Assembly (NCBI GenBank): GCA_024516035.1
Contig: CM044955.1
Span: forward strand, 57,077,655 to 57,141,654
Origin: Bactericera cockerelli
Lineage: Eukaryota > Arthropoda > Insecta > Hemiptera > Triozidae
Direction: 5' to 3'
DNA length: 64,000 nucleotides
Shown here: piece after piece, positions 20,001-49,336 of the stretch
Layout: each line of letters opens with the position of its first letter
Position numbering within the stretch: the first letter of the stretch is position 1
The notes under the pieces: generated by a model
The model's database searches: none
What the model saw: only the letters and a program-made list of their open reading frames with translations
What the model was told of the DNA's origin: nothing
Made by a program: the position numbers and the translations under genes

Positions 20001-23000
20001 TTTGCGTGATAGCCTTCCAGATGTTAGGTCCTAGCTTGAGAAGCCCGTGTTGGGCCGTATTCGTAAGGAGAAGCAAAGATTTTACTTGTGAAATTCGAAG
20101 GAAATGGTTCAGTCGGTATTTCTAAAGTTTGGAGAGCAATTTTAATAATAATATCGCCTTATTTATACTGGGACTATTAAGTCCCATTATTCCAGCAGTA
20201 AGCCCAAGACGTATTATTATGTGGTAAAAATCCCAAATGGAAGAAAAACTTGTCATGTCCCGGCTGGTTTCAAACAAGAGGACACGGAAAATAATAATAA
20301 TATCGCCTTATTTATACTGCCCGATTAGTCAAGTCCCATTATTCCAGCAGTAAGCCCAAGACATATTAATATGTGGTAAAAATCACTAATGGGAGGATAT
20401 CTTGTCATGTCCGGAAGTATTATGTCTGGAAGTATTATATCTGGTGCCCAGACGCTTTGAGTTAGAGCGCAGACGTCGTGAGGGAAAGGGGGTTTTTAGA
20501 GTTTGGCCGTACGGTGTAGGAAAGGTGAGGGAACCTCGAGTCCATGACAAGAGGAATGCCTGCGGCGTTCTCAGTATCGGAGGTCTGAGCTGTTGTCTTA
20601 AAACTCTCGAGGCAGCATATCAGTCCTCCCTTCTCAGCTCAGCTGATTTTCCTCCGTTTTCTCCCGACGTCTGTCCTTATCCCCAAAAAAAAAAAAAAAA
20701 AAAAAAAAAACTTGTCATGTCCCGGCTGGGTTTCGAACCCACGACCGCTACAGGCGCTACAATCTCCAGATGCCGCCTTTACCACTGAGCTACCGGGACA
20801 AATAAATAAATTCCTTTTGTTTATATTTCTTGCTTTTGTTCTCGAGAAATTGCTTCTCTCTTGTGAATACGGCCCAACAATGCAAGTCCTAGCCATGAGC
20901 ATAAAGTTAATAAACCCGAAGCTCAACAACTTTCAGGACTGAGTCGTGTGTGGATCATTGTTCCTACCAACAGGTTTCCGATGGAGGAGAAATGTGTGGG
21001 TGTCCTCTCCAGGGGAGATGCATGTGGACCATTAGGTCGCTGGGTACAGGGTGTGGCCGAAGATGGTTCATATACAGGGCGTAGATTACATTGGTGCATT
21101 ATTACATCAAGCATTGCTAGTCGGTCTGGTTTTGGCGCCAGACTTATTGCGGGATTAATAGACGTTAAAGCCGACCTCCGTGACTCAGTGATTAAGAGCA
21201 TTGGTTGCTGACCCGGAGGTTGCGGGTTCGAATCCCGTCCGGAGCGGAAAATTCTAACCGAGTTTTCCGTTTCCGGAATGGCATGGATGCAAAGGTAAAG
21301 TGACCTGAAGTAATGCGAAAGCGGTTCCGGGGCACAGTTACCTTTTTTTTAAATAAAAAATAGACGTTTTTACCTCTGTGGCGCTAAGTCACGGATTGCG
21401 TACTGTGTAAGATAGCGAAAACCTACACTTATCAGTGGTAAAGGCGGTAGTCTGTGAATCCAGAGATTCTAGAGTTCGTGGGTTCGAAACCCAGCCGGGA
21501 CATGACAAGTTATCCTGCCATTTGGGAATTTCACCAGATAATAATACGTCTTGGACTTACTGCTGGAAAAATGGGATTTAATAGTTCTATCGGGCACGAT
21601 GCGTAGCGTCGTGGGTTCTAATCCGGGCGAGTTTTTTCTTCCTTACACAAATGCACATGTCTAATGGTGCCTTCATGTCTGTTCTGTTTCAGAAACGTAA
21701 GATGGTAGGAGACGCCACGTCTACCCAAGTGTTACGAGACCTGGAGATCTCCCTGAGGACAAACCACATTGAGTAAGTCCAGCCTAAGTTCGACTCCCAG
21801 GTGGACAAAAAATTCTACTCTGTACTTTGGCTATTATTTATTTACTTTCTTTTTTACAAAACAATCAACAATAAATTAATCAGTAAATTAAAAAAAAAAG
21901 AAAAAGCATAAAAATATGTACAAAAAAAACTTCCGATTTCTAATATCAGAAATTTATCGGAAGTAATATAGAAGAACATAAATAATATTTACGATTGTTT
22001 TGTTTTTTGGTGAAGTTAATGCCTTAGGCATTCTCTGCCACTTCACCCCGGCTGTTGAGAGTCCACTCATACCTCGCCGCGTAACAATGAGCTGTTACTT
22101 GTTAAATAATAGAAACTCTTTATTAGTAGGTAGAACATATATACAGACAAATAATGGTAAATATAAAAATAGACAATATTAATAATATAAACAAGGAAAA
22201 AAAAAAACAAAAAACAAAATATATACATATGTCCTAACTAAAGGGCGGGGTTATTGCCTATGGCAATCTCTTCCACCCAACCCTTGTTTTAGTTACGAGA
22301 AGGGGTGTCCGTGATGGTTGTGTCATGGTGATGGAAGGTTTGATCGTGGTATTAAACCCTGGTGACGCCCAGAAGCAATTTTCTGGGCTCCTTCCGTGTC
22401 CTGTGTGTGGTGTTCATGTAAATAAATTTCACTTGTAAAAACATTCTTAAATTTTGGGAAACTTTGAAGCTTTATATTTTTCGAATAAGGGTAAGGGGTG
22501 AAGTTCGACAAGGACAGAAGAATTCTTTCGAGTAATCGGGATTTTTGACCTATCAGGGTTTCGAGTTAGCCAGGCTCTACTGTAAACTTGTCTCCCTGAT
22601 AGCTAATTATTAATTAATAATAATAATATCGCCTTATTTATACTACCCGATTAAGACTGTTAAAGTCCTATTATTCCAGCAGTAAACCCAAGACATATTA
22701 TTATGTGGTTAAAATCCCAAATGGGAGGATAACTTGTCATGTCCCGGCTGGGTTTCGAACCCACGACCTCTGGAATCTCTGGATTCACAGAGTGCCGCCT
22801 TTACCACTGAGCTACCGGGACAGACTAATTGACCCCCCTCTCCTCTCCCCACCCCCCCTCAGATGGGTGAAAGAGTTCCTGAACGACGACAACCACGGCC
22901 TCGACTCCCTCATAGAGTACCTCAGCTTCCGCCTCGTCATGATGAGACACGAGCACCGGCTAGCCGAGGCCAAGACTCTGTCCCAGGAGACTCTCAATAC

Positions 23001-26000
23001 CAGCTCAGGTAACAATCAGACTCTCAATACCAGCTCAGGTAACAATCAGACTCTCAATACCAGCTCAGGTAACAATAAGACTCTCAATACCAGCTCAGGT
23101 AACAATAAGACTCTCAATACCAGCTCAGGTAACAATAAGACTCTCAATATCAGCTCAGGTAACAATAAGACGCTCAATACCAGCTCAGGTAACAATAAGA
23201 CGCTCAATATCAGCTCAGGTAACAATAAGACTCTCAATACCAGCTCAGGTAACAATAAGACTCTCAACAACAGCTCAGGTAACAATACAACCAAGACTCT
23301 GTCCCAGGAGACTCTCAATACCAGCTCAGGTAACAATAAGACTCTCAATACCAGCTCAGGTAACAATACAACCAAGACTCTGTCCCAGGAGACTCTCAAT
23401 ACCAGCTCAGGTAACAATCAGACTCTCAATACCAGCTCAGGTAACAATCAGACTCTCAATACCAGCTCAGGTAACAATAAGACTCTCAATACCAGCTCAG
23501 GTAACAATACAACCAAAACTCTGTCCCAGGAGACTCTCAATACCAGCTCAGGTAACACTAAGACTCTCAATACCAGCTCAGGTAACAATACAACCAAGAC
23601 TCTGTCCCAGGAGACTCTCAATACCAGCTCAGGTAACAATAAGACTCTCAATACCAGCTCAGGTAACAATACAACCAAGACTCTGTCCCAGGAGACTCTC
23701 AATACCAGCTCAGGTAACAATAAGGCTCTCAATACCAGCTCAGGTAACAATACAACCAAGACTCTGTCCCAGGAGACTCTCAATACCAGCTCAGGTAACA
23801 CTAAGACTCTCAATACCAGCTGAGGTAACAATACAACCAAGACTCTGTCCCAGGAGACTCTCAATACCAGCTCAGGTAACAATAAGACTCTCAATACCAG
23901 CTCAGGTAACAATAAGACTCTCAATACCAGCTCAGGTAACAATAAGACTCTCAAAACCAGCTCAGGTAATAACAAGACTCTCAATACCAGCTCAGGTAAC
24001 AACAAGACTTTCAATACCAGCTCAGGTAACAATAAGACTCTCAACAACAGCTCAGGTAACTATAAGACTCTCAATACCAGCTCAGGTAACAATAAGACTC
24101 TCAATACCAGCTCAGGTAACAATAAGACTCTCAATACCAGCTCAGGTAACAATACAACCGAGACTCTGTCCCAGGAGACTCTCAATACCAGCTCAGGTAA
24201 CAATAAGACTCTCAATACCAGCTCAGGTAACAATACAACCAAGACTCTGTCCCAGGAGACTCTCAATACCAGCTCAGGTAACAATCAGACTTTCAATACC
24301 AGCTCAGGTAACAATAAGACTCTCAATACCAGCTCAGGTAACAATAAGACTCTCAATACCAGCTCAGGTAACAACAAGACTCTCAATACCAGCTCAGGTA
24401 ACAATAAGACTCTCAATACCAGCTCAGGTAACGTACAATACAACACCGTAATAATAATAATAACACTCTATAGTGGAAGGTAACCAACCGCCAAGTGAGA
24501 CTAATGCTCAAAGCATTTTCTACTACTCTCAGCAAAAATAAACCTGAAATTTTTTGGAAGAGTGATCACTCGAATGCGATAACTCGTAATGCCAGCTATT
24601 CCCGACCCAAATCAGGCTGGATGAGGTTAATTTAAGTAAAGAAAAAGTAAATCCCAAAATATGAGTCGAAAAAATTAAACTTGCAAGTTTTTCCTCTCCA
24701 TTATCTAAAACGTACGAATAACACTATATCATATACCATATACGAATAACACTATACCCCCTAAAAGTACAAAAGATATTGTACTTCAAGGAGATTGTAA
24801 TGAAAAAACTGTAGAATGAAATTAAATCAACTCATTATTATTATTATTATTATTGCCCCTCTCCCCTTCTGCTTCAGGGTTACCAGCCAACGGCTCCGGG
24901 AGTGGCGGAACCGGGCCCCCCGCCTCTGTGATATGCCCCCCCGGGGGCCGCGATACGCCCACGCCCCACCCCCTGCGCCCCTCCCTGGACCTGGCCGCGT
25001 CGCCCAGTGTGAAGAAGCGCTCGCGACATGCGGCCCGGCTGAACATGGGCGACCCCAAGGACGACATTCACGTGTGCATCCTGTGTCTGCGGGCCATCAT
25101 GAACAACAAGTACGGGCTCAACATGGTCATCAAGCACACCGAAGCCATCAACAGTATAGCGCTGAGTCTGATGCACAAGAGTCTCAGGTGAGTCTTGAGT
25201 AGGAACTTAAGTACGGGCTCAACATGGTCATCAAGCACACCGAAGCCATCAACAGTATAGCGCTGAGTCTGATGCACAAGAGTCTCAGGTGAGTACTTAA
25301 GTACGGGCTCAACATGGTCGAGTTGGGTGGAAGAGCTCATTGGAAGAGATCATTCTAGTGAGAATCCTGCCATAAAAAAGCCTATTAAAAAAAAAAAAAA
25401 AAATGGTTATCAAGCACACCGAAGCCATCTCAACAGTATAGCGCTGAGTCTGATGCACAAGAGTCTCAGGTGAGTCTTGAGTGTGAACTTAAGTACGGGC
25501 TCAACATGGTCATCAAGCACACCGAAGCCATCAACAGTATAGCGCTGAGTCTGATGCACAAGAGTCTCAGGTGAGTACTTAAGTACGGGCTCAACATGGT
25601 CATCAAGCACACCGAAGCCATCAACAGTATAGAACTGAGTCTGATGCACAAGAGTCTCAGGTGAGTACTTAAGTACGGGCTCAACATGGTCATCAAGCAC
25701 ACCGAAGCCATCAACAGTATAGCGCTGAGTCTGATGCACAAGAGTCTCAGGTGAGTACTTAAGTACGGGCTCAACATGGTCATCAAGCACACCGAAGCCA
25801 TCAACAGTATAGCGCTGAGTCTGATGCACAAGAGTCTCAGGTGAGTATTTATTTATTTACACTTAATTTTTTATACAATACAAACAACAATAAATTATTA
25901 ATAAAGATACAAAAAAAATTAACAATATTTACAAAATAAAATATAAATTTAAGAAAATACTTCAATTTAAATGTTCAATGTATTGTAATCCGGGGCGAAG

Positions 26001-29000
26001 TTAATGCCTTAGGCATTCTCTGCCACTTAACCCCGAGTAATAACTTAAGTACAAAATAAAAAAAAACATGGTCATCAAGCACACCGAAGCCATCAACAGT
26101 ATAGCGCTGAGTCTGATGCACAAGAGTCTCAGGTGAGTCTTGAGTAAGAACTTAGGTACGGGCTCAACATGGTTGAGTTGGGTGGAAGAGCTTCAGTGAG
26201 AATCCTGCCATAAAAAAAGAAAGCCTATATAAAAAAAAACATTGTCATCAAGCACACCGAAGCCATCAACAGTATAGCTCTGAGTCTGATGCACAAGAGT
26301 CTCAGGTGAGTCTTGAGTAAGAACTTAAGTACTGGCTCAACATGGTCATCAAGCACACCGAAGCTATCAACAGTATAGCGCTCAGTCTGATGCACAAGAG
26401 TCTCAGGTGAGTCTTGAGTGTGAACTTAAGTACGGGCTCAACATGGTCATCAAGCACACCGAAGCCATCAACAGTATAGCGCTGAGTCTGATGCACAAGA
26501 GTCTCAGGTGAGTCTTGAGTAAGAACTTAAGTACGGGCTCAACATGGTCATCAAGTACACCGAAGCCATCAACAGTATAGCGCTGAGTCTGATGCACAAG
26601 AGTCTCAGGTGAGTCTTGAGTAAGAACTTAAGTACGCGCTCAACATGGTTATCAAGCACACCGAAGCTATCAACAGTATAGCGCTGAGTCTGATGCACAA
26701 GAGTCTCAGGTGAGTCTTGAGTAAGAACTTAAGTACGGGCTCAACATGGTCATCAAGTACACCGAAGCCATCAATAGTATAGCGCTGAGTCTGATGCACA
26801 AGAGTCTCAGGTGAGTCTTGAGTAAGAACTTAAGTGCGGGCTCAACATGGTTGAGTTGGGTGGAAGAGCTCACCCCAGTGAGAATCCTGCCATAAAAAAG
26901 AAAGTCTATAAAAAAATTTAAAAAAATATGGTCATGAAGCACACCGAAGCCATCAACAGTATAGCGCTGAGTCTGATGCACAAGAGTCTCAGGTGAGTCT
27001 TGAGTAAGAACTTAAGTACTGGCTCAACATGAGCATCAAGTACATGTCTTGAATGAATCTTTCAATCCGACTTTATATTATTGAATACTAGCGGGCCGAG
27101 GCATGGCCGTGAAAGCAAAAAATCCTTTTTCGCCAATGGTAGGTGTTATAGTGGGAATTTCGAAAAATCCCGTCATATTGCACATCTAGACTATAAGACA
27201 AAGCTACCTACCAAATTTCAGCTCGCTAGGTATTACGGTTTGGGCTGTAGAGCGATGATCAGTCAGTCAGTGACTTTGACATTTATATATTAAGATGGTT
27301 GGTTGGTTTCAATTGCAAGTTGCGAACAACCTTTTCAACACAGCATTATAAAGATTAAAGTGAATGAAAAGTCGACGATAAGGAGCCTTTTCTGGTACTG
27401 ATCTCAAACTGGATTGATAATAAGTTGCAGAACTCAGGTTCAAATTGGTTCAACAAAGTTTATGTAAATTAATAAACACCATAACTATGAATATAAACAC
27501 CACAACTATGATAACTAATTTAAGATTTTGACGAGGCTTTTGTACTATGATCGTAGAAATATACATACCGTATATAATAAGTCATATTTAAGATTTTTTT
27601 TAGTTTTTTATTTCAGTAGATTTATTTTTTTTCACTTAAATTATTTCAGTAGATATATGATTTTGATTAAATTTATCCGTACGATAAAAAAATTAAGATT
27701 TAGCTGAACCATTCTATTTTCTTGAACTAGAAAGTTTTCACCCCCCCCCCCCCAGGACGAAAGCGCTGGTGCTGGAGCTGTTGGCGGCCATCTGTCTGGT
27801 GACTGGCGGCCACGAGATCATCCTGGCGGCCTTCGACAACTTCAAGGAGGTGGGCCAGGAGACCCGCAGGTTCGAGACCCTGATGGACTACTTCATCAAC
27901 TACGAGGTCTTTCACATAGAGTTTATGGTGAGTATAATAATAATTCCGTGTCCGTGAGATAGGTATTGATACCTAAATACCTAAATCACCGTGGTGAGAG
28001 GATTATATGGACGCCCAAATCCATTGTCTAGGGCTCCTTTCATGTCCATTGATTCTATTTGTTTTTAACGTCCTGACTTGAGGTAGACAGGACGGGGGTT
28101 TTACCCTCCATTCGCTGGGAATCGTAGCAGCTACCCACATTAACCTCACCCAGCCTGGGTAGGACCGGAATTGCCAGCCTCACATGTTCGGAGGGAACAG
28201 AATTTTCTGTGCGAAAAGTCTGCTCCAACCGGGAATCGAACTCAGGATCTCTGGACTAGGGGCAGTAATCACAACCGTTACGCCACGGAGGCTGGCGTAA
28301 CGGTGAGTGACTTACCGTTCATAAATTGGTTTTAGTGCTGGGCCAGGTGAAAGTGGATTATAAAAGAGTCGCTGTTGGGATATGAATAGGGAAATAAGAT
28401 CCGGGTTGAGCTTTACAAAAATATATTGATATGCTTTTTACAAATCATTATTAATAACATTTGGCCGCGTTGAGACTCGACTGCTGGGTCCCAGCTCATG
28501 TAAATTTAGCGTCACGTGATCAATTTGGAACTCTGTGATTGGTGGAAATCGATCACGTGACCCCAAATCTACATGAGCTGGGACCCAGCAGTCGAGTCTC
28601 AACCCGGCCACATGTATGTTATTACTGAATGATTTTTAAAAAGCATGTTACTGTGCCCAAGTGTATAGCGCGCTAGTCTTGCACGCACAGTGACCTGGGT
28701 TCCAATCCCAGCGGATTTTTCGGACTCTGGACTTTGTATGTTATGGGGTCCTCGCGAGGAAAAATATGTTATTCCTTCAATGCGAGTCAGCTGCAACCAG
28801 TGGTAGAAATATGAGCAAAAATAAGATATTGGGACATTCTAGGAAAAGGAAACCTCAGTAGCTTGATCGATAAGGCGGCGGACATGTAACCTGGAGGTCA
28901 GTTGTTCAAGTCCGTTTCAGCATAGATTTAGTAAAACGAGTATGAGTAGTTGTGATATCTATCACGAAAATGATTAACACAAATATGATAACTAAATTTT

Positions 29001-32000
29001 TTTTTCTCACCATATCTAATTTATTGCACTTTCAGGTGGCGTGTATGCAGTTCATCAACATCGTGGTGCATTCAGTCGAGGACATGAACTTTCGGGTGCA
29101 TCTCCAGTACGAGTTCTCAAGGCTGGGACTGGATAGCTACCTGGACAAGCTCAGGCACACTGAGAGTGAAGAGCTTCAGGTAACTTTAGGCCTGGATAGC
29201 TACCTGGACAAGCTCAGGCATACTGAGAGTGAAGAGCTTCAGGTAACTTTAGGACTGGATAGCTACCTGGACAAGCTCAGGCATACTGAGAGTGAAGAGC
29301 TTCAGGTAACTTTAATGTTGGATAGCTACCTGGACAAGCTCAGGCATACTGAGAGTGAAGAGCTTCAGGTAACTTTAATGTTGGATAGCTACCTGGACAA
29401 GCTCAGGCATACTGAGAGTGAAGAGCTTCAGGTAACTCTAGGACTGGATAGCTACCTGGACAAGCTCAGGCATACTGAGAGTGAAGAGCTTCAGGTAACT
29501 CTAGGACTGGATAGCTACCTGGACAAGCTCAGGCATACTGAGAGTGAAGAGCTTCAGGTAACTCTAGGGCTGGATAGCTACCTGGACAAGCTCAGGCATA
29601 CTGAGAGTGAAGAGCTTCAGGTAACTCTAGGACTGGATAGCTACCTGGACAAGCTCAGGCATACTGAGAGTGAAGAAGAGCTTCAGGTAACTTTAGGACT
29701 GGATAGCTACCTGGACAAGCTCAGGCATACTGAAAGTGAAGAGCTTCAGGTAACTCTAGGACTGGATAGCTACCTGGACAAGCTCAGGCATACTGAGAGT
29801 GAAGAGCTTCAGGTAACTCTAGGGCTGGATAGCTACCTGGACAAGCTCAGGCATACTGAGAGTGAAGAGCTTCAGGTAACTCTAGGACTGGATAGCTACC
29901 TGGACAAGCTCAGGCATACTGAGAGTGAAGAAGAGCTTCAGGTAACTTTAGGACTGGATAGCTACCTGGACAAGCTCAGGCATACTGAAAGTGAAGAGCT
30001 TCAGGTAACTCTAGGACTGGATAGCTACCTGGACAAGCTCAGGCATACTGAGAGTGAAGAGCTTCAGGTAACTCTAGGACTGGATAGCTACCTGGACAAG
30101 CTCAGGCATACTGAGAGTGAAGAGCTTCAGGTAACTCTAGGACTGGATAGCTACCTGGACAAGCTCAGGCATACTGAGAGTGAAGAGCTTCAGGTAACTT
30201 TAGGACTGGATAGCTACCTGGACAAGCTCAGGCATACTGAGAGTGAAGAGCTTCAGGTAACTTCAGTAGGGCATGATTTTTTCTGGTTTGTACTTGGATG
30301 TCTGTGGTTCACTCATACCTCGTGAGGAAAGATGAGTGACCAGTGGCGTAATTATGGCAAAAATAAGATATTGGGATACTTAAGGGAAAGCAAAAGTGCT
30401 ATAATTCTGCCCTACCCACTAAATTAACACAAAGACACATTTTTTTTTATATCAGGATTCTTAATTTTTTTAGTCATAGATTTCAACTTGTAATCCTGAC
30501 TTATGTCAAATATTTCAGGTTCAAATCTCGGCTTACCTGGACATAGAAATAGAATTCCTTACTTCATGTCCGATATTTCAGGTTTAAATCTACACAATCT
30601 CTAGAGAGACATGGATTTCCTTACTTATATGTGTGTCGGAAATTTCAGGTCCAAATCTCGGCGTACCTAGACAACGTGTTTGATGTTGCCGCCCTGATGG
30701 AGGACAGTGAGACCAAGACTGCAGCCCTGGAGAAAGTAGCCGAGCTGGAAGATGAGCTGGGACATGTGAGTATAGAACAGCTTGTAGGTAGTCCTGTTGT
30801 ATGGACAGATATAGTCCCAATATAGAATAGCTTGTAGCTAGTCCCGTCGTATGAACAGTTAGTCTCATTATATGAACAGCTAGTCCCATTATATTAACAG
30901 CTAGTCCCGTTGTATGAACAGCTAGTCCCATTATATGGACAGCTAGTCCCATTATATGGACAGCTAGTCCCATTATATGAACAGCTAGTCCCATTATATG
31001 AACAGCTAGTCCCATTATATGGACAGCTAGTCCCATTGTATGAACAGCTAGTCCCATTATATGGACAGCTAGCAATTTAGCCCTATACTGTTATAGATTA
31101 TTTTATTGAAATGTTTATTGTACAACAAATGTAATCGTTCTTCTCCCGACACATGGTACCTACGAGGCTCGAGGCGTTTCCAAGCTAGACTGCCAATGAC
31201 AGTTGTTGGCGTAAAAATGCCCCGGCCCCGGTATCACCACATTATCTACTTCTTTGTATAATACTCTTATGAAACTAAATCTACAATTAACTACTTATAT
31301 AATACTCTTTTGTAACTAAATTTTGTTTGAAACACGTAGTGTTAAAGTAGAAGCCCTTCAAAGCTCAGGAGAAGTACCTTTGTATAAATGTTTCTTTATA
31401 AAGAAAATAAATAAATAAACTAAAAAAAAAAAAAATGCAAAAAAGAAAAAAGAAAGGGGCTATTTTTAATTATGTCTCATTCTTGCAGGATGAACATGAT
31501 TGATTGATGAACAAAGAGATTGCCAAAGGCAATAACCACGCCCTTTAGTTAGGACATATATTATGTATAATTGTATATATTATTATATATAATTTTTTTT
31601 CTTCTATTATATCGCACCCTCAGAATTAGATGGTGATATGTCAAAAACACCAACTTTTGGGAAATCGCAAAAGAAAGTTTGACTTATCGCTGTATTAATA
31701 CAATAAAAGCTACTGTTTTGATTTATATGTTCTTAAGTTGAGCATGTTCTTTTCTATAGTTCTATGTAAAAAAAATGTATTTTTCTTCAAAAGAACTTAC
31801 CTTTGTAACCGTTCGAAAAAAAGGCATTTTGACTTAAAACTTCATTCTATGATTTTGCCTTTTTTCGAGAAAAAATCAATTTTTAATAAGGTGATATCGT
31901 ATTATATTACCTTTTCTTCCATGAGAAGTGAACAAAAGTGGGTATTATCTCGAAAAAAATTCGAGATAGCACCATCTATTTACAATTTTGAAATGATAGT

Positions 32001-35000
32001 ACCTTGATAATTTAGTTTTATAACACTATATTACCATATGAATCGAAGAATAAAAGACAATTTGAAACTGGAGGTACATTAAAATCTATGCTTTTGGTAT
32101 TAAGTCAGAAAAAAAAGAAAACTCATTCAGTTTAAAAAAGTGAAATGTAAAATACCCAATAAATTGTTTTATTGCTAAGCAGTAAAAGGTAGAAAACAAG
32201 ACAATGTGAGTATAAACTTTATTGTTTCTTGAGACTTAATCTCAAAGTTTCTAAAAAGAAATAACTAAAAACAAATAATTATGAATTTCAAAAAATTGCT
32301 TGAGAGCAATAAATTCGGGACAGTAACTTTCTCAAAGTTTTTGATTTTTATAATTTTTATTTTACATTGGATTTTCAAGTGTGAAGTATCCCAAGAAAGG
32401 AAATTTTGTTGGTTTTAAGACGGTGTATATTTTTTTTCATTGTGAGCATGTTTTTTAATATAATAATTCAAATAACAAAAAAGAGGTCTAAAGAGCATGA
32501 AAACACTGCAAATGATATCGGTGTTTTTTGTGTTATTTCTTCGAAGTCTTCATGGAAATTTGGCTGTTACTTACCTCTTAGTATCTGGTATTACCCCCTT
32601 CGAGCTTGTATGACAGCCTGCAATCGATTTCTCATGGACTTGATTAGGTTGGCAGCCGTTTCTTGATCGATAGTCTCCCACTCCTCATAAAGCGCCTGTT
32701 TCAGGTCCCTGTGGTTCATTGGGGGCGGGTTTCGAGCATGGACACGTCTTTTAAGCTCGTCCCAGAGGTGTTCAATAAGATTAAGATCAGGACTGTTGGC
32801 TGGCCAGTTGAGGGTTCGAATACCGGCCTCTTGGAGAAAGTCACTTACAATACGTGCTGTACGAGGTCGGGCATTGTCTTGCATTAACACGAATCCATCA
32901 CCCACAAAACCTGCATAAGGGACAACATGATCTTCAATGATGTCAGTGACATACCTCTCTGCAGTTAGGTTACCTCCTTGTCCTCCACAATTGATGATAA
33001 CGAGCTCTGTTTTAGTTTCCATAGAGATTCCACCCCAGAAGATACAAGATCCTAAACCAAAACTCACAGTTTCTTGAATATAACATTGATTATACCGTTC
33101 ACCTGGTCTTCTATACACCCTTTTACGTCTGTCATTGAAAAACAAGCAGGGTCGGCTCTCATCCGTGGACAGAACGTGCCCCCATTCCCCATTTCCTCAA
33201 TCAGCGTGTTCAAGGGCAAATTGTAAATGACGTTGTCGGTGTTGTCTGTTGAGTTTGGGTCCCGTAGCTTTTCTTCTTGGTATGAGACCTTTCTTTTTCA
33301 AGCGTCTCCTTACTGTCCAAGGGCTGACATCAACACCAGTGGCCATAACAAGCTGCTGTTGGACCTCAACACCAGACATGTCTCGATTTCTTAAGCTTGT
33401 CATGACAGCAAATCGGTCCTCCTGGGCAGTTGTCTTCTTTGGTCTGGCAGATCCTGGTCTCTGATCATAGCTACCTGTCTGCCGATACCTTTGGTAAATT
33501 CTGTTCACCTTAGACTTCGACAAATTTAGTTCCTTAGCAACATTTCTTTGCTTAACACCTTGACTCACAAGTAAAACCACTTTCACAGCTATGGAGTGCG
33601 ATGTCTCCATGATGAAAAGAAAAATTCAACTGAATTTCCTTCCTCATAGTGTTGCATTTAAGGAAATTCAATAATTTACTGGCCAAAAAAGCGTTATCAC
33701 AACAAAAAATCAAATTTAGAATACCCTCGGTGCACGTGTTTTCATCAACAAAATGAGGTGTTTCTGGAAAGTGGCCATTATCATTGTTGCATAGTACATA
33801 ACCCGGACACATTGTGTATTTTCTGAAAGGTATGAGTACAAGCTTTTCAAATATATGCATACTTTAACAACTTCATGCCACACAAATTGACCAGGACCAA
33901 CTGAAACGGTGAAATGTCCTGTCCCGAATTTATTGCTCTCAAGTGTATATCGAAAATACCGGGCCAGATTATTTTTAAGTCAAAAAAAAAAAAATAATAA
34001 TTTATAAAAGAAAGTAATATAACATAATCTTATGTATTAGTAATTTCTACCTTGACAAAACACAAAAAAAATATTCGACAAAGAGAGTGATATTTCAAAA
34101 AAATCATGCACAATTCAGTTTTTATGTCAATTACTGAAAATAAAATTTAATAAAGAGAGTGATAAATCAAAATTTACGCAAATATCACTATATTCCAAGA
34201 ACTGTACGTCTCGATCCAATGAGCTCTTGGTAACAACTGATCGTAATACCATCTTGTTCCAACCTCCCTCCACTTTTTCGACATAATCAATAAACAACAC
34301 TAGTGCTATCTCGGGAACGGTAAGGGCTAGAATTATAATTCTTATACCAAACGAAAGGTCTCGTTTCGCTTATTTCGATAGAGTAATAAAAAAAAATTCA
34401 TGATTTTTGACATATCACCATCTAATTCTGAGGGTGCGATATTGTATTTTAATTTGTAATTTTTCGTGTTGTATATAATACGGAGTGCTAGGGGCTTGCT
34501 CCACCTCTCTCGCGGGTTGACCCGGTATTGCAGTTGTATATAATACTACCCGTTTTTCCGTGCTTTGCAACGGGACTAAATTTCAAATTTACTAAGGCAT
34601 GGCCGTACTGCTGGACAGCAATGCCTTTTTCAACTTTTTATAATTTTTCTGGATAAAGCGATAATGGCTTTGGGGGGGTCAATTCTGAGACATTTTTCGC
34701 TATCTCTTACCGTTTTGGCTAAACAACTCCGGACAAACAAACATAGGTAGGTAGGTAGTCCTTTTTTCTGTTTTATATACATATAGAGATGTCCTATTAA
34801 TAAAATGTAAATAAATAAAATAAAAAATAAATAAAAAGATGAACAGAGCATTGCATTGTGTGTATAACATTCCCCTCCTCTAACTCTCCCTAATCCCCGC
34901 CCACAGGAGAGTATTGCATTGTGTGTCTAACATTCCCCTCCACTAACTTTCCTCTAATCCCCGCCCACAGGAGAGTATTGCATTGTGTGTCTAACACAAC

Positions 35001-38000
35001 CTCCTCTAACAACTCTCCTCTAATCCCCGCCCACAGGAGAGTATTGCATTGTGTGTATAACATGACCTCCTCTAACTCTCCCTAATCCCCGCCCACAGGA
35101 GAGTATTGCATTGTGTGTATAACATATTCTCCTCTAACAACTCTCCTCTAATCCCCGCCCCACAGGAGAGTATTGCATTGTGTGTATAACACAACCTCCT
35201 CTAACAACTCTCCTCTAATCCCACAACCTCCTCTAACAACTCTCCTCTAATCCCCGCCCACAGGCGCACGAGCGTCTAGCGGAACTGGAGCGCGAGTCCC
35301 TGGCGCAGCTCACAGCTCTGGAGGGCGCGCTCGGGTCGGCGCGCGCCGAGCGGGACGAAGCGACGCAGTGTAAGCGCGCCTTCGAGGAGGAAGTGGCCAC
35401 ACTGCGGCGCGTTGTGAACGAAACCCAGGCGCAGAGTCTGTCCCGCCAGTCCATGCTCGAGGATAAGATACAGGAGCTGATCACCACCAGGACACTGCCG
35501 CGGGACTCCAGTGAGTAGCCGAAGTTAGGTTGGGTGGAAGAGATTGCCGTAGGCCAGGGCTGCCCAACCAGTCGATCGCGGAGTGATTTTGGGTCGATCA
35601 CGTCCAGAGAGGTGAGATGACGTTCTAAAAGTCTAGATCTCGAGAGAACAAAATGATTGTGAACGAGGTGTTCTGGCACCTCACACAAGTGAAAATCCGA
35701 GATCTCTTTGTAACTCAGGGGGGGGTTCGATCGCGTTGATTATCTGAGACTTTATAGTAGATCTTCTTCTGTAAAAGTTGGGCGCCCCTGCTCAATAACC
35801 CTGCCCTTTAGTTAGGACATATGTATATATTTTGTTTATATTTTTATCTTACCTAAATTATTAATATTGTCAATTTTATATTTAATTTTTACCATTATTT
35901 GTCTGTATATATGTTCTACTAATAAAGAGTTTCTAAATAAATAAAAAAGTTATAACTTAATGGAGTAGTTCGTATTTCTTACATATTTTTATTATTTTTA
36001 TTTGGTGCGTTTATCAATGCATTTAAAAGCTTAGTGCCTCTTAGGACCAAATTATGAAACAAGATCACAGCCACTGTGTCTTTTTTACCTGTGTTAGATG
36101 ATTGCAATACGGTAAGTCGTCGATGGCACGTTCAACACACCAGTTCTCATTTTGTCACTGAAGTTTAGCAACTACTAGCGAGATTAGGACTTGTATGAGT
36201 GACCATTCAATTTTTTTTTTTTTTAATAGAGTTTTTCTATAAAAAATTAATAAATAAAAAAATGACTTGGATGGGTGACCGTTCAAATTAATTTTTCTTT
36301 GGAAAGAGTTTCTATAGAAAATTAATAAAAAAAATCTATGCCCCCCTTCAGGTTCGAGCACCAGCAGCGGAGTCTCCAGCTGTTCCTCCTCCTCCTCCTC
36401 TTCCTCCGCCTCCGTGTCTCCCCCTCCTCCCCCCGCCCCCCCGCGCCCCCCGCCCCCCCCCCTCCCCACCTCCTCCTCCTCCTCGGTGCCCCCACCCCCG
36501 CCTCCCCCTCTAGTCCCGGGCGCCCCTCCCCCCCTCGCCGGCATGATGAGCGCCCCCGACGGCGCGATGACCATCAAGCGGAAAGTTCAGACCAAGTACA
36601 AGCTGCCCACGCTCAACTGGATAGCTCTCAAACCAAACCAAGTGAGTGGTTTCCTTCGCTTTATATAAACTGCAGGATACCATATGCACTGGTAGTCAAG
36701 TGGTCTGGTAATACATACTTGGAATTTACTGTATGAGACCACATCATGTTGAGCAACGTCGAGCTAGGCTAAGAAATGGCCGAAAATTTATTGAGATGGC
36801 CACCAGTTGGGGACATTTTGTTCTATTTTTTTTTTTTTTAATCTGATCCTGTAATCCAGGTAGCGTAGGGATCCGTTGGTTCGAATCACATCCAGTGCAT
36901 GAATTTTTCCTCATTAATTTGAGTTTGTGACCATAATAATAAGACTCTAAGGTTTAGGTGGTAGAAAATGCTTTGAGCATTAACCTCGCTTGATGGTTAC
37001 GTTCCACTAAAGAGTATTGTTATTATCATTATAGATCTTACTGGGTCGCAGTGTTGATTATATGGAGTTTCATCTGAAACCCTGCAACCAGGTCACAGAA
37101 TAATAAAGGAAATTGGCAGGCTTTTCTCCTGATGGAGCTCTTCCATCCAACCACTCATACGGTAATAATGTTTGCTAGTGATGGTTACCCTAGCCGAGTG
37201 AGTTAGCGCGCTAGGCATTGCGCGCATCGTAACCAGGTTTCGAGCCCCACCCAGCAGCGCAGAATTTTTCCTGCCCGAAATATGGTCATGAACTCCCACT
37301 CCTCGGTTCTCATAACCTCCCACTCCTCGGTTCTCATGACCTCCCACTCCCCGGTTCTCATAACCTCCCACTCCCCGGTTCTCATAACCTCCCACTCCCC
37401 GGTTCTCATAACCTCCCACTCCCCGGTTCTCATGACCTCCCACTCCTCGGTTCTCATAACCTCCCACTCCTCGGTTCTCATGACCTCCCACTCCCCGGTT
37501 CTCATAACCTCCCACTCCCCGGTTCTCATAACCTCCCACTCCCCGGTTCTCATAACCTCCCACTCCCCGGTTCTCATGACCTCCCACTCCTCGGTTCTCA
37601 TGACCTCCCACTCCCCGGTTCTCATAACCTCCCACTCCCCGGTTCTCATAACCTCCCACTCCCCGGTTCTCATGACCTCCCACGCCTCAGTTCTCATAAC
37701 CTCCACTCCCGGTTCTCATAACCTCCCACTCCCCGGTTCTCATAACCTCCCACTCCCCGGTTCTCATGACCTCCCACGCCTCAGTTCTCATAACCTCCCA
37801 CTCCTCGGTTCTCATGACCTCCCACGCCTCAGTTCTCATAACCTCCCACTCCTCGGTTCTCATGACCTCCCACCCCGGTTCTCATAACCTCCCACTCCTC
37901 GGTTCTCATGACCTCCCACTCCCCGGTTCTCATAACCTCCCACTCCTCGGTTCTCATAACCTCCCACTCCTCGGTTCTCATAACCTCCCACTCCTCGGTT

Positions 38001-41000
38001 CTCATAACCTCCCACTCCTCGGTTCTCATAACCTCCCACTCCTCGGTTCTCATAACCTCCCACTCCTCGGTTCTCATAACCTCCCACTCCTCGGTTCTCA
38101 TAACCTCCCACTCCTCGGTTCTCATAACCTCCCACTCCTCGGTTCTCATAACCTCCCACTCCTCGGTTCTCATAACCTCCCACTCCTCGGTTCTCATAAC
38201 CTCCCACTCCTCGGTTCTCATGACCTCCCACTCCTCGGTTCTCATAACCTCCCACTCCTCGGTTCTCATAACCTCCCACTCCTCGGTTCTCATAACCTCC
38301 CACTCCTCGGTTCTCATGACCTCCCACTCCCGGTTCTCATGACCTCCCACTCCTCGGTTCTCATGACCTCCCACTCCTCGGTTCTCATGACCTCCCACTC
38401 CTCGGTTCTCATGACCTCCCACTCCTCGGTTCTCATGACCTCCCACTCCTCGGTTCTCATGACCTCCCACTCCTGGTTCTCATGACCTCCCACTCCTCGG
38501 TTCTCATGACCTCCCACTCCTCGGTTCTCATGACCTCCCACTCCTCGGTTCTCATAACCTCCCACGCCTCGGTTCTCATGACCTCCCACTCCTCGGTTCT
38601 CATGACCTCCCACGCCTCGGTTCTCATAACCTCCCACCCTCGGTTCTCATGACCTCCCACTCCTCGGTTCTCATAACCTCCCACGCCTCGGTTCTCATGA
38701 CCTCCCATCTCCCCTCGGTTCTCATGACCTCCCACTCCTCGGTTCTCATGACCTCCCACTCCTCGGTTCTCATGACCTCATCTCCCACCTCCCCGGTTCG
38801 CAGGTTCGAGGCACCATCTTCTCCGAGCTGGACGACGACCGCCTGTTCAGCGTGATAGACTTCGCCGACTTCGAGGAGAGGTTCAAGCTGGCCCCCCAGG
38901 GGGGCGGCAGGGGCGGCCCGGAGGTGGATGATGGGGACGGGCTCAGCACCTTCCCCAGCAAGAGGTTCAAGAAGCCCGAGGCCGTGTCCCTGCTCGAGCA
39001 CACGAGGCTCAGGAACATAGGTGAGCATTTATTTTTTATTTTATTTTTTATTTATTTATTTACACTTTATTGATAGGACATATTATATACAATACAAATA
39101 ATTACAAATTAAAATACAATATAATAGAAAAATAAATAAATACATTCAGCACAAGATTTTTTATCTTTTGAAGGTATTTGTTTTTGTTTGTTATATTTGT
39201 TATTTGTTGTTTGTTATATATTTGTTATATTTATTATTTGTTTTTTTTGTTTTTTTTTTTTTTGTTTGTTATATATCTCCCTTGCCTTTATCCCATATTA
39301 GCTTATGTTGCTTGAGAGGTCGGCATTGTTCAACCTCATGGTTGAGGTTGGTAGGGTGGAGCACGTTTTTTACGGCTGGATGCCCTTCCTAACGCCAACG
39401 ATTCTATTTGGTTTTAACGTCCTGATCTGGACGGGGGTATTACCCTCCACTCGCTGGGAATCGTACCAGCTACCCACTTTAAACTCACCCAGCCTGGGTA
39501 GGGCCGGAAATGCCAGCCTCACGTGTTTGGAGGGAACAGAATTTTCTTCGAAAAGTCTGCTCCAACCGGGGATCGAACTCGGAATCTCTGGACTACGGGC
39601 AGTAGTCACAACCATTACGTCACGGAGGCTGGCACCCTCATTATGGCTGGATGCCCCTCATTATTAATTTGTTGAAGATGTTTATTTGTGAATTATACAT
39701 ACATGGAAACTTAAAAAAAAAGATACTGTATAAAAACTTTTAGGTATGAAATACGAGAAAAAGAAGAGAATATCATGTAAAATTGTAAACATGTAACATT
39801 AAATATAAGAGTTGTCATTAAATAATTAAACAAAATATACGAACTCGAAGTAATCGTCGGCAGTGAAAAAAGCGACACAATTTTTTTCACATTTCTTAAG
39901 AATGCTAAGATTCTCTGCCACCGGGGTGAAGTGGCAGAGAATGCCTAAGGCATTAGCTTCGCCCCGGACTACAAGAATTGTAATGTTCTATATTTTTTTT
40001 ATATATATATTTTTAATTTTTTTCTTGTTATTAATTTAGTTTTGTATAACTTCGCCCCGGATCACAAAAATTGTAATGTTCTAAATTTTTTATATACGAG
40101 TAAATATATATATTTTTAATTTTTTTCTTATTCTTATTAATTTAGTTTTGTATAAAAAATAAAGTGTAAAAAAAATAATGTCTTGTGTCGGTGTTTCCAG
40201 CAATATCGAGGCGAAAGCTGGAGCTACCTGTAGATAGAATCATAGCGGCCGTCACCTCACTAGATCTCAAAACTATCCCGCTGGAGAGTGTGGAGATTCT
40301 GCAGCGGATGATCCCCACGGAGCAAGAAGTGAGTTCCAATCTCCGTATTGACCTAATAACAATGGGTTCCTATCCCTGTATTCACCTAATAACAATGGGT
40401 TCCTATCCCTGTATTCACCTAATAACAATGGGTTCCTATCCCTGTATTCACCTAATAACAATGGGTTCCTATCCCTGTATTCACCTAATAACAATGGGTT
40501 CCTATCCCTGTATTCACCTGATAACAATGGGTACTTTGGTGGAAACTAAACGCATTTCCAATAGCCGACAGGATTAGTAAATTAGCCATTCAAAGAGGAA
40601 ATGCGGCGGCAGTTGTGGGCTGTGTGCCTTAGGGAGATGATTTTGTTGACTTGTTTTATACGTAGTAAAATAAATATGTGTCTGATTTCAGTCCTAAAAA
40701 AAGCCGACCTTTAGATTTTATCAGCTAACCGATAGGTATTGTAGAAAAAGATTTTCCGCCACGAAGGCTGGCCACAGCTCCGTTACGGCACAGAAGTAAT
40801 AATACAGCTACAAAGCCCGGCTTTGATATGACCTCTACAGTTGTTGTCAAGGTGAAAGTTAAGGGATAGTGTTCACTAAGATTAACAAATCCTGTTTCAT
40901 AATTCGGGCCTAAGTCCTCTTGTTTTGTGGGCTGGTTTCATTTCTTAAATTAAATTTATTTTCTCTCTAAGTAGGCGGCCACAACGAGGACCCTGGCCTA

Positions 41001-44000
41001 CACCCTCCACCTACCTGGTACATACAGCTTGATATAGACGATTTTCGGGACTCCGTTGTCACCGCTTACATGAAATAACATGGTTAGATTATTTTACGTG
41101 CTACTGGCTCTACCTCAGGGTCCAGGGTATAGACCTCCGCCACCGTTGTGTTCGCGCACTAAAGTCTGTCCCGCCGGCGCCGGTAGCTCAGTGGTAAAGG
41201 CGGCACTCTGTGAATCCAGAGATTCCAGAGGTCGCGGGTTCGAAACCCAGCCAGGACATGACAAGTTATCCTCCCATTTGGGATTTTTACCACATAATAA
41301 TATGTCTTGGGCTTACTGCTGGAACAATGGGACTTTAATAGTCCTAATCGGGCAGTATAAATAAGGCGATATTATTACTTACTTACTCTAGGGTTGATAC
41401 AGGCCGGGGGGGGGGGGCCCAAAACCTCTATACACTCGATACACCATCCTTTTTAGGTATTCCCATTTCTACCATTGCATTGAATATAGCTTGCCTATGA
41501 AGGCAGTCAAAGGCGTTTTTAAAGTCTACAAACATTAGATGTGTCTTTTCTAAATTCAAATCTTCTTTCAAGGAGTTGTCGCAACGTGAAGGCGATATTA
41601 TTATTATTATAATTCTCTTTTTTTCCTTTTTAAACTCTAGTTTGTAAAAAATATCTTATTAATGATACCATGTCTCCCCCAGACCAAAGCATATCATTAT
41701 TACTATAATTCTCTTTTTTTTTTCTTTTTAAACTATAGTGGGTAAATATAATTTCTTATTAATCATACCATGTCTCCCCCAGACCAAAGCATATCATTAT
41801 TACTATTATTATCTTTTTTTTCCTTTTTAAACTATAGTGAGTAAAAAATATCTCCTTATTAACTATACCATGTCTCCCCCAGACCAAAGCCTACCGCGAG
41901 TACCTCGCTGAGAAGAAGGACGTGAATCTCCTCACCGAAGAGGACAAGTTCCTCCTCCAGCTCACCCGGGTGGAGCGGTTCTCCACCAAACTCTCCATCA
42001 TGAGCTACATCGCCAACTTCTCGGACAACGTGCAGCTCATCACACCGGTGAGTTCTCAAACTCTTTCTTCTTATCAATACTTAATCACACCGGTGAGTTC
42101 TCAAACTCTTTCTTCTTATCAATACTTAATCACATCGGTGAGTTCTCAAACTCTTTCTTCTTATCAATACTTAATCACATCGGTGAGTTCTCAAACTCTT
42201 TCTTCTTATCTATACTTAATCACACCGGTGAGTTCTCAAACTCTTTCTTCTTATCAATACTTAATCACACCGGTGAGTTCTCAAACTCTTTCTTCTTATC
42301 AATACTTAATCACACCGGTGAGTTCTCAAACTCTTTCTTCTTATCAATACTTAATCACACCGGTGAGTTCTCAAACTCTTTCTTCTTATCTATACTTAAT
42401 CACACCGGTGAGTTCTCAAACTCTTTCTTCTTATCAATACTTAATCACATCGGTGAGTTCTCAAACTCTTTCTTCTTATCAATACTTAATCACACCGGTG
42501 AGTTCTCAAACTCTTTCTTACTATCAATACTTAATCATACCGGTGAGTTCTCAAACTCTTTCTTCTTATCAATACTTAATCACACCGGTGAGTTCTCAAA
42601 CTTTTTCTTCTTATCAATACTTCATTACACCGGTGATTTCTCAAACTCTTTCTTCTCATCAATACTCAATCACACCGGTGAGTTCTCAAACTCTGTCTTA
42701 CTATCAATACTTAATCACACCGGTGAGTTCTAAAACTCTTTCTTACTATCAATACTTAATCACACCGGTGATTTCTCAAACTCTTTCTGTTTAGTTTCAT
42801 TTTTTTTTTTTTTTTTAAGATGAATGTTTCACAGCCATTTTTTTTTTTTCTTCGTACCAATGAAACAGAAGTTACTCTAGACAATAGAATACACATTTCT
42901 TGACGGCTCGGGGCTTCGAACCCTAGATCTAAGTGCGCTCAATGGTAAGATTTTATCTTGGTACATTTTATTCAAATCTGTAGAAACTTTGGTTTGAAGT
43001 TGACATTTTTGTTATTATTGTGAAAGTTTTTTTTTTTAATAGTAAAATTTAAATTAAAAAAAAATATTTTTTAAATAATGCAATCTATGTATATTTGCTT
43101 TTTATCATTATTTGTATAGTATAGTAAATAAATTATATAATTTGGATTCGTGCAATCGCCGAAGACGGACCCTTTTATTCCACATATCCAGGTGTTCCAC
43201 TTTGGACTTCCAGGGCTCGGGGTCGGCACTTCCGTTCCACATATCCAAGGTCGACTGCATAATACCCATACCCATGTCCACTATAATTATTATTATTATA
43301 CAATGCTTTATTAGGTGTAAATGGACATTATGTACAATTGTACATACAAATAAATATTTTAACAATTAAAAAAATGGAAACAATATATACAATAAAAATG
43401 AAAAAGAATAGAAAATATATAAAAACATAAGTCCTAACTAAAGGGCGGGGTTATTGCCTATGGCAATCTCTTCCATCCAACCTTTCTAATAATCCCCCCT
43501 CCTCCCCCCCACAGCAAGTCCGCTCCCTCCAGGCGGCGGCCGGCTCGACGCGCCGCTCCCGCAAGCTCCGTGCCCTCCTCGAGGTGGTCCTCGCGTTCGG
43601 CAACTACCTGAACAGCGGCCGCCGCGGCCCCGCCTACGGGTTCCGCCTGGCCAGCTTGGACGCGCTGCCAGACACGAAGACGCCCGACCGCAAGCTGTCT
43701 CTGCTCCACTTCATCGCCGGCACGGTGCGGGCCAAGCTGCCCGAGCTGCTGTCTTTCGACGGCGAGCTGACGGCGCTCGACAAGGCCGCGTCGGGTGAGT
43801 GTGCGCAGAACCACTTATTTATTTATTTAATTTATTATTTATTTAGAAACTCTTTATTATTATTATTATTATTATAAAGCCTGGTTGCAGGGTTGCGTCT
43901 GAAACACCATACAATTAACACTGCGACCTAGTAAGATCTATTGTGACCAAGGAGAAATTGTGACCAGGTCGCTAGAAACTCTTTATTAGCAGAACATATA

Positions 44001-47000
44001 TACAGACAAACAATGGTAAAAATTAAATATAAAATTGACAGTATTAATAATAATTATAAACAAGAAAAAAAAATAAAAAAAATATATACATATGTCCTAA
44101 CTAAAGGGTTATTATATACCACTCTGTGCTTGTAGTTCATGATTTTTTTGGTCTGTGCTTGTACTACATGACATTTTTTGGAGAGGATGTTATTTTATCC
44201 CACCAGTGTATGAATTTTTCTTCATGAATTTGGTTAAAACCCCACAAAACAAGAGGGCTGTAGCTGTAGCCCCTTAGTGTGGGGTAGTCGCATTAAATAT
44301 ATGTTACCTATTATATACAATTATTAATGCAAATAAATTACAAATTATTAGACCACATAATAATAAGACTCAGAGGTTAGGTGGTAGACAATGCTTTGAG
44401 CATTAACCTCGCCAAGTGGTTCCTTTTCCACTAAAGAGTATTAATATCATTTTAGTCGTAGAACGACCAATATTAAACTGTTTTTTTTTTTCTCTTAATA
44501 TGTATATTTTAGATTTTTGGCAACGTTGTAATTTTCTATGGCGGGTCGCTTTTAACTGTCCGAACACATAATAATGAGACTCTGCTGGGGGTGGTAGAAA
44601 ATGATTTAAACTCATAGTAAGGAAATTTTTAAATCAGGATTAGTACTATCAAAACAATCACCCAGACATGTCCTTGTGTTTGAAACACCGGGCTTGTGCC
44701 GTAATCCCAATCCAACCATTGGAGAAGAAAAGTAATCAGATATAAAACTATCAAATATAAAACGAACCAAAATAGTGGAGGTGATTGTACATGTTCTCAA
44801 CTTGATTCTGTAGCTTCAGTCTATTTTTCCGACGCATTTGAGGTTCTGTCAGGGTGTCCACAGGGTGGTCATTTGTCTGGACTCGCGTTTAATCTCTACA
44901 TAAACGACATCGAACAATACCTATCAACACCTTACTGGCTCTTTGCTGATGACAAGCGTACTGGCCTTGAAGTGCGCAATGCTCAAGATGCTCATGCTCT
45001 GCAAATGTCATTGGATGCTATTTATCAGTGGTGTCTTGTAAATAAAATGGAACTTAATATTAGTAAGTGCAAAATAATTTCATTTCATAAGAATAAAGAT
45101 CCTTTATGTTTTCAATACTCCCTTAATAATGTGCCACTTGAGAGAGAGATCGCCACAAAAGATCTTGGAGTGTCCATGAATAACGAACTTTGTTTTAATG
45201 AGCACTACAATCTTATCACTAAGAAAGCCTTTAAAATACTAGGTTTCATTAACAGAAATTCAAAAGAATTTAAAGACCCCACTACTTACAAAATCATGTA
45301 TTATACTTTCATTCGCTCCATTCTCGAATACGCCTCTCCTGTGTGGTCACCCTATTATAAAATTCACATCTCCTTAATTGAATCCGTTCAGCGTGCATTT
45401 TTAAGATCTCTAGCTTTCAAACAAAAAACAGCTATCCTGAATCACAATTACATAGATATTATGAAACTCAATAACATTGACACACTAGAACACAGGAGAT
45501 CCGTTAACGATATGGTATTATTATTCAAAATACTTAATAGCAAAACCCATCTACCAGACTTTTTAAACAATTTACATTTTAGAATTAATAATAAATCGAC
45601 TAGAAACAAAGCTCTATTCATGGAAAAAATTTGCACTAAAAACTATACATTCCATCAACCCATAAATAGACTCATGAGACTCTATAATATAGCCTGTGAT
45701 CTGGACCCATCCCTCGACATATTTTGTGATAGCATGAGCAACTTCAAGAGCAAGATCCTCCAGTTGAAAAATCTATCCTCCCTTTAACCTCTGTAAACAT
45801 CATGGACCTTTCCACTCCACTCCAGTCCACAACAGCTTTTGACTAGAAAAGAGGGAAAATGGAAGAAATACAATGTACATTTTTTATTAACATTTTTACC
45901 TTAAGCAGTTGCCAAAGGATATTTCCTTAGTTTCTGCGAATGGGGTTGGACCCCGTAAATTCGTAAAAATAAAAAAAAATAAAATAAAAAAAATCAGAAT
46001 AATAATAATAAATATAATAACAATAAAAATGACATATCATTTTATTTATTTATTTACACTTTATTAGATAATAGGACATATACAATACAAATAATTACAA
46101 ACGAAAATACAAAATACAATATAACAAAACAAAAAAATAATAATAAATAAAGAAAAAATAAATAAATATATACATAATATATGTCCTAACTAAAGGGCGG
46201 GGTTATTGCCTTAGACAATCTCTTCCACCCAACCCTTTGACTAAAGCCTATCATATGACTAAAGCCCTGTTCACACGCCCCCCTGTTTCACAGTCTGCAT
46301 CGAGAACATTCTGGCCGACATCTCCGAGCTGGAGAAGGGCATGGAGCTGGTGCGACGGGAGCTCGCCTCCTCCTCCTCCTCCTCCTCGCACCCGCTGCGG
46401 GACTTCCTCGCCTCCACGGAGGACCAGCTGAGGCGACTGCGCGCGGAGGCGACGCAGGCGGTGGAGGTGTTCCGGGACTGTGTCGAGGCGTTCGGCGAGC
46501 CCGCCCGCGGCACCGACGCCAACGCGTTCTTCCCGCTGCTGGTGAGTGGGCGACACACTTTGGTGTACGCTAAGATTTAGAACTTTTGTGAGGTTTTGTA
46601 ATGAAATATTGTTTATTGTTGTATTAGAGTTTAACGTCGTTTTTCAACTGCATGGTCATACACGACGGGGGTTTTACCCTCCATTCGCAGGAAACTTACA
46701 AACCTGCTACCCACATTAACCTCACCCAGCCTGAGGTGGGCCCGAATGCCAGCATCACGAAGTCTTCACCTCGCTGGACGTTGCTTAACTTCGGTGATCC
46801 TACGAGAACCGGTGCATTCAACGCGCCATCGACGCTGGCAATATAATATTGTAATTAAATTTAGAACATTCATTAATTTATATTGTATTTATATTTATGA
46901 GTGTCTATTTAAACGTAATGTATTGACTGAAGAAATTTTCAAAATTTCAAATTAACTGTACCAAAAAATGCAAGGCTAAGTTACTCCATTGTCTGTAATC

Positions 47001-49305: not shown

Positions 49306-49336
<31 letters not shown>

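Follow-up and report, generated by a model that had tools for sequence, protein, structure and literature searches.

Results

A formin gene with tandem arrays at its splice junctions

We analyzed a 64,000-nucleotide stretch of the genome of the psyllid Bactericera cockerelli (contig CM044955.1, here C1, positions 57,077,655 to 57,141,654 of the forward strand; hereafter the window), which contains an FMNL/Frl-type formin gene at 21693..52123 (+) with tandem arrays at many of its splice junctions. Fifteen exons were found, which join into one open frame of 970 codons; the introns are all GT-AG, with consistent phases (exons 2-16). The exon numbers 2-16 are those of an initial annotation of this DNA, which had reported arrays at no fewer than nine of thirty internal exon ends. 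Exon 1 was not located, and the internal ends considered here number 29 (15 acceptors and 14 donors). The protein has FH2, Drf_FH3, and Drf_GBD domains (Pfam), and its best PDB match is formin-like protein 2. The top two of the 120 protein matches listed are psyllid protein P0001 (87%, over the whole alignment) and Diaphorina citri M8J75_005541. When the exon joins were compared with P0001, which is from a related psyllid, 13 of 14 showed no gap and the remaining one was off by one residue.

Arrays in the window were identified with Tandem Repeats Finder (TRF; score of at least 100, period of at least 10). At nine of the 29 junctions, a TRF array contains the junction or ends no more than 24 bp away, and a tenth junction has imperfect copies (Table 1). 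Five junctions lie within their arrays (donors of exons 3, 4, 6, and 12, and the acceptor of exon 12), whereas the exon 11 donor and the acceptors of exons 8 and 10 are abutted by theirs. Thus, all nine ends named initially are included in or touched by an array, the exon 7 acceptor by imperfect copies only, and a further end, the donor of exon 7, joins them by virtue of a 21-bp unit that begins at base +6 of intron 7. The consensus units of the ten junctions each consist of local junction sequence and are unrelated to one another. What they share, as the initial annotation had recognized, is their position at the exon-intron border, a relationship seen again in other genes and, as far as donors are concerned, across the whole genome in a word test (see below).

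By word count, the exon 3 donor array has 42 copies, spaced by 30 or 51 bp, and the exon 4 donor array has 15, which TRF reports in three pieces (25108-25303, 25487-25851, and 26238-26851). Extra copies of the donor word number 40 at exon 3, 17 at exon 6, and 16 at exon 12. The last unit of the exon 10 acceptor array is degenerate and stops 4 bases short of the exon. At the exon 12 donor, the unit comprises a 30-bp seed, ATCACACCG/GTGAGT..., and 15 bp without counterpart in the single-copy allele. The exon 7 acceptor copies were not reported by TRF and are absent from a second copy of the gene described below; one of them matches with no more than 2 mismatches in 16, with 25 matching exon bases. 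Units within single arrays vary both by substitutions and by whole variants.

Table 1. Junction arrays and exons of the formin gene, in window positions; a slash marks the splice junction
Feature	Position	Strand	Description
Exon 3 donor array	22988..24432	+	30-bp unit, 51-bp variants, CTCAG/GTAAC in every unit; TRF
Exon 4 donor array	25108..27030	+	90/101-bp units: 80 exon bases + CTCAG/GTGAGT, interrupted by spacers
Exon 6 donor array	29126..30262	+	63-bp unit x18, ~55 exon bases + CTTCAG/GTAAC; TRF
Exon 7 acceptor copies	30510..30680	+	three imperfect copies, TTTCAG/GTYYAAATC, read from the sequence
Intron 7 array	30771..31072	+	21-bp unit from base +6; TRF
Exon 8 acceptor array	34845..35263	+	66-bp unit ending CCCGCCCACAG/G; TRF 34845-35254, end 9 bp away
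Exon 10 acceptor array	37286..38799	+	pyrimidine-rich 24-bp unit x62; TRF 37286-38779, end 24 bp away
Intron 11 array	40333..40532	+	33-bp unit x6 from base +5; TRF
Exon 12 acceptor array	41595..41890	+	100-bp unit x3 with CCCCCAG/ACCAAAGC; TRF
Exon 12 donor array	42039..42788	+	45-bp unit x16.7; TRF
Exons 2-6	21693-21772, 22863-23008, 24878-25187, 27756-27927, 29036-29179	+
Exons 7-11	30649-30765, 35264-35510, 36352-36641, 38804-39020, 40201-40328	+
Exons 12-16	41883-42047, 43515-43794, 46294-46541, 48617-48772, 51911-52123 (stop)	+

To ask how often arrays fall at junctions, we used a null in which each array is counted once, as one seed of unit length, because array bases cannot overlie an existing exon and an array grows from one local unit. 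Eight of the 14 arrays in the window gene lie within 10 bp of a junction, where 1.43 would be expected, and none of 20,000 simulations reached eight; a junction lies inside five of the 14 (1.1 expected, p = 0.0025). For the second formin copy, the corresponding figures are five of 18 arrays with a junction inside (1.6 expected, p = 0.014) and five of 18 within 10 bp of one (p = 0.039).

The initial annotation had called arrays rare outside the gene. There are indeed 14 between exons 2 and 16, but six occur elsewhere in the window. One of these, with units of 38-40 bp (52156-52489), begins 33 bases past the stop codon and is present in both formin copies; it lies at the edge of coding sequence, where there is no splice site. 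Strong arrays outside the gene are found at 7-803 (24/43 bp) and 62132-62425 (35 bp). Of two intronic reading frames, the one at 32591-33625 (- strand) resembles a transposase of the Tc1/mariner type, and the one at 44705-45787 resembles the reverse transcriptase of a retrotransposon.

We also considered array periods divisible by three as a sign of translation. Such periods occur in seven of nine junction families of the formin window; overall, the figures are 10 of 20 at junctions versus 11 of 33 elsewhere (p = 0.09; Fisher 0.26), and the idea was dropped as unsupported. In the Diaphorina citri protein P0002, a 28-residue stretch of exon 10 is repeated in frame and parts beside the ends of exons 9 and 12 are missing, which perhaps reflects similar duplications in that species, or else errors in the gene model.

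A second formin copy has the same introns and partly different arrays

A second complete formin gene lies approximately 0.39 Mb away (C1:56700001-56750000), with exons 95-100% identical to those in the window and with similar flanks; it represents an unmerged haplotype or, alternatively, a segmental duplication. Five junction families are common to the two copies (donors of exons 3, 4, and 6; acceptors of exons 8 and 12), with differing copy numbers: the exon 6 donor has 18 units in the window versus 13 in the second copy, the exon 8 acceptor has 5.8 versus 3.6, and the exon 3 donor array has fewer units in the second copy. The exon 12 acceptor family of the second copy has 100-bp units and, in addition, a block of 82-bp x5 units that take in 36 exon bases. 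Exon 9 of the second copy is two bases shorter, with loss of the frame from there on, which may be a base error or a real loss. Several myosin and CCT genes are, like the formin gene, present twice, roughly 0.1-1 Mb apart and in some cases inverted, which suggests either haplotypes left unmerged or segmental duplications.

Four private families occur in the window but not in the second copy (donors of exons 7, 11, and 12, and the acceptor of exon 10), and all four lie within 24 bp of a junction. At exon 10, exon 11, and the exon 12 donor, the second copy holds a single unit, the seed of the corresponding window array. The exon 11 seed is flanked by 4-bp GTTC repeats, and the single exon 12 unit lacks the 15-bp insert that separates the units in the window. 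When a template for this insert was sought, one match with no more than 2 mismatches was found, on the opposite strand of the second copy. Because the second copy has the same introns without them, at least the four private arrays of the window are younger than the introns. The idea that local duplication creates or removes introns, raised in the initial annotation, is thus not borne out for these four arrays.

Junction duplications in myosin and CCT genes

Two protein families were sampled without regard to the presence of arrays: myosin heads (77 matches) and CCT chaperonins (68 matches). We read 20 stretches, which include 43 of the 77 myosin matches, and two CCT genes. Myosin locus A2 (5 matches) was excluded as a second copy of A1, and the remaining 38 matches have 76 ends, of which 53 passed our splice-score limits. 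Each CCT gene contributed 11 junctions, after exclusion of one donor per gene whose end is unclear (in CCT-b, it lies beside a 19-bp x2.5 repeat). One donor of myosin F, located at a pair of mutually exclusive exons, was excluded from the resulting count of 74 junctions and included in the donor/acceptor split and in the profile described below.

Junction words with an extra exon-proximal copy were found at 10 of the 74 junctions, versus 2.84 expected (p = 0.00035). When all non-redundant junctions were taken together, including the window formin, the count was 16 of 103 versus 4.42 expected, which none of 20,000 simulations reached. Of the donors in the myosin and CCT genes, 8 of 34 are duplicated (p = 3.7e-5, with the one mutually exclusive exon counted). 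A collapsed profile of exon-proximal duplicated 16-mers rises from 2.4% at 61-100 bases into the exon to 15.6% within 10 bases of the junction and is 3.6-4.1% at more than 150 bases into the intron. The reach of donor copies into the intron is unusable as evidence, because the matching rule demands 8 intron bases.

Array families gave a similar result. Counting only families adjacent to a known junction, in ten regions that include the window formin and exclude its second copy, we found 19 of 53 at junctions versus 2.54 expected; the highest value in 10,000 simulations was 12. An earlier count of 26 of 67 was discarded because it took in matches to arrays in other introns. Arrays at known junctions are present in myosins C, E, F, and H and in CCT-d, and in the second formin copy they make up 6 of 14 families (p = 0.0013). 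More array units reached a given donor score in the sense than in the antisense orientation (8 versus 3 of 53 at score 5; 4 versus 0 at score 6), which is the expected direction, albeit with numbers too small to carry weight.

In myosin E, a 153-bp unit is repeated across 1.3 kb (region positions 6825-8146); its copies match the donor edge of a myosin exon, and splice-like signals flank a short exon-like piece. A 129-bp array in myosin G ends in ATG/GTGAGTG, at an exon end that our scoring missed. In CCT-d (6308-6561), a 92-bp unit fuses a copy of an exon end and donor to an element that, by eye, resembles a tRNA.

A tandemly repeated donor word across the genome

The whole assembly (565,017,811 bp) was searched for three copies of a splice-site word at gaps of 15-45 bases, with the pattern read backwards as the control. 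The donor word CAGGTRAGT gave 3072 matches (1458 + 1614) versus 46 backwards (22 + 24). Matches overlap within an array and therefore do not represent independent arrays. Those listed fall in seven places, all on contig C1 below 15.7 Mb, and the letters displayed for them comprise five distinct units. In 333 kb, arrays included, CAGGTRAGT occurs 36 times versus 11 backwards, a ratio of single sites far below the 67-fold ratio of the tandem pattern.

Discussion

Resemblance to the mirages of amphioxus

Tandem repeats over splice junctions have a precedent in the mirages of amphioxus, on which Canestro 2002 is said to be the founding paper. As described in two later papers, mirages are repeats that lie over intron-exon boundaries in the Adh3, globin, troponin C, and PGBD5 genes, with unstable lengths that differ between haplotypes and, where tested by reverse transcription PCR (RT-PCR), no aberrant mRNA (PMC3087553, PMC3902484). 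The initial annotation overlooked these when it knew of no description of so many arrays in one gene. The psyllid units are likewise built from sequence local to each junction, with exon edge, splice signal, and intron edge in one unit that spans the boundary; many contain the AG or GT signal, except for the flank arrays of exons 7, 10, and 11; and array length differs between the two formin copies, be they alleles or a segmental duplication. Mirages affect donor as well as acceptor boundaries. Within the formin gene both kinds are hit; outside it acceptors are not significant, and the acceptor word shows no genome-wide excess. The psyllid case differs in its host, an insect, and in its extent: nine to ten junctions are affected in one gene, myosin and CCT genes are affected too, and the donor word, unlike the acceptor word, is repeated genome-wide, whereas the amphioxus passages cover single genes. 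We found no report of a genome-wide, donor-centred form of mirage in an insect, nor of any mirage in psyllids, in a literature of which subscription papers were thinly covered.

Two other systems are relevant. In the Rogers model, introns are gained by tandem duplication of an AGGT-bearing segment (examples are potato RdRp, ATP2A1, and fission yeast), and the potato case crosses an intron-exon boundary (PMC4974935). The psyllid arrays resemble this in being local tandem duplications that involve splice signals; however, they make no new intron, as the second formin copy attests for the four private arrays. Small tandem duplications have also been described in cells given targeted nicks or breaks, where they arise when broken ends that protrude are repaired (PMC5730883). 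Such repair could yield the first duplicate in the psyllid, in which 4-bp repeats flank one seed and a 15-bp insert is present in one array. We know of no preference for splice sites among break-repair duplications.

Origin of the junction arrays

The arrays carry junction sequence, differ between two copies of one gene, and are found again in unrelated genes, and tandem repeats of the donor word occur genome-wide. The observation made initially in the formin gene is therefore confirmed and reaches beyond that gene, whereas its interpretation is partly supported: duplication at exon-intron borders holds for donors, in both the gene sample and the genome-wide word test, whereas for acceptors it falls short of significance in the former and shows no excess in the latter. 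On balance, we think that in this psyllid tandem duplication affects DNA around splice junctions, chiefly at 5' splice sites, at a much higher rate than it does the remainder of the intron, and that the duplicates subsequently expand into minisatellites. As the cause, we favour a duplication bias at donors, with the spare copies spliced out, although this is unproven. A first short duplication would arise through break repair or slippage, of which the 4-bp repeats that flank one seed and the 15-bp insert that separates the units of another array may be marks. The duplicate would then grow into a minisatellite, and splicing would stay with the outermost site, either the first donor or the last acceptor. 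Spare copies would thus end up in the intron and be harmless. The preference for donors may stem from a bias toward local duplication where transcribed DNA passes from exon to intron, a step at which GC content changes from 63% (exons) to 38% (introns).

The initial annotation left two possibilities, a process that duplicates DNA at borders or selection that tolerates expansion only there. No direct evidence separates them; the excess over intron interiors, where arrays are also tolerable, points to a process or to positive selection. If duplications arose evenly and those spanning junctions merely survived because splicing removes the copies, the depletion of exon interiors (2.4% versus 3.6-4.1% in deep introns) and the intact outermost site in the gene model would be explained. 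Arrays in intron interiors should then be tolerated at least equally, yet the rate at junctions is about four times theirs, and all four families private to the window are at junctions; we disfavour tolerance alone and consider it improbable. Positive selection has somewhat better prospects, though we regard it as unlikely. Under it, duplications would arise anywhere and be kept at junctions since splicing gains in robustness or adjustability from extra sites or polypyrimidine tracts, in keeping with the intact site repeated in most junction arrays, with an excess confined to the junction itself rather than the intron at large, and with the strong repetition of the donor word across the genome. 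However, identical donors would compete with the true one, and the arrays differ between two copies of one gene. Moreover, three arrays (those of the exon 7 and exon 11 donors and of the exon 10 acceptor) repeat neighbouring intron sequence rather than the GT or AG, which is why we prefer a duplication bias to selection for spare sites.

The absence of the splice site from those three units counts against a junction-centred bias as well, and several other results weigh in the same direction. The six families private to the second formin copy include none within 25 bp of a junction by distance; one of them consists of 30 repeats of the exon 13 acceptor, with 11 exon bases included, and another repeats sequence that in the window comes right after exon 8. 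The junction-word test in that copy alone gave 5 of 29 versus 2.56 expected (p = 0.107). Acceptors alone are not significant, either in the myosin and CCT genes (3 of 41, p = 0.21) or in the sample of 56 (5 of 56, p = 0.072), and the acceptor word TTTYCAGG, at the same spacing, shows no genome-wide excess (210 versus 221 in the control); for both these reasons, the process looks donor-centred. Five of 12 regions (myosins A1, B, D, and G, and CCT-b) have no array family with a score of at least 100 at a known junction. Finally, raw coverage at junctions is not raised. Local near-copies take in 27% of the bases of the formin gene, and 6, 7, and 8 of the 29 junctions fall in them at three tolerances, versus 7.8, 9.1, and 9.8 for random points; the uncollapsed profile of the formin, myosin, and CCT genes likewise stands at 18% at the junction versus 15-26% at 10-300 bases into the intron.

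The excess in the formin gene thus exceeds chance on the seed null and does not on raw coverage, and the latter is what favours the view that arrays cover so much of a repeat-rich genome that some must touch junctions. Counted as one seed per array, the excess is 5- to 7-fold, it is found also in genes not selected for arrays, and the donor word departs from its backward control across the assembly, so that chance is refuted unless the seed null is wrong and seems to us very improbable. We give still less credence to collapse or expansion of repeats in a draft assembly. The many genes present twice suggest unmerged haplotypes and invite that suspicion, but units within arrays differ by substitutions and whole variants, and five families occupy the same junctions in both formin copies with differing numbers. 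Least probable of all, and refuted for the arrays that we read, is delivery by mobile elements that prefer splice sites, as introners do. A tRNA-like element, recognized by eye, does lie between the junction copies of one CCT array; however, the units are each junction's own exon and intron sequence, with no sequence common to them.

Implications

A broader proposition is that a mutagenic process tied to splicing or transcription duplicates short stretches of DNA at 5' splice sites throughout the genome of this insect, continually copying exon ends into the following introns; new exons, donors, and protein tails would then have a hidden source. We advance this tentatively, as a plausible extension that may well prove too broad. 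Repeated exon edges carry a warning for annotation, since they can mislead gene models, haplotype merging, and the recognition of "expanded" families in such genomes. With its chromosome-scale assembly, this insect also allows an old remark on amphioxus mirages to be put to the test. If junctions are duplicated through a mutational bias, splice sites belong among the hotspots of mutation, in a form that standard models do not include, and arrays of ready-made donors would open a direct path to alternative ends of exons and to changes in introns.

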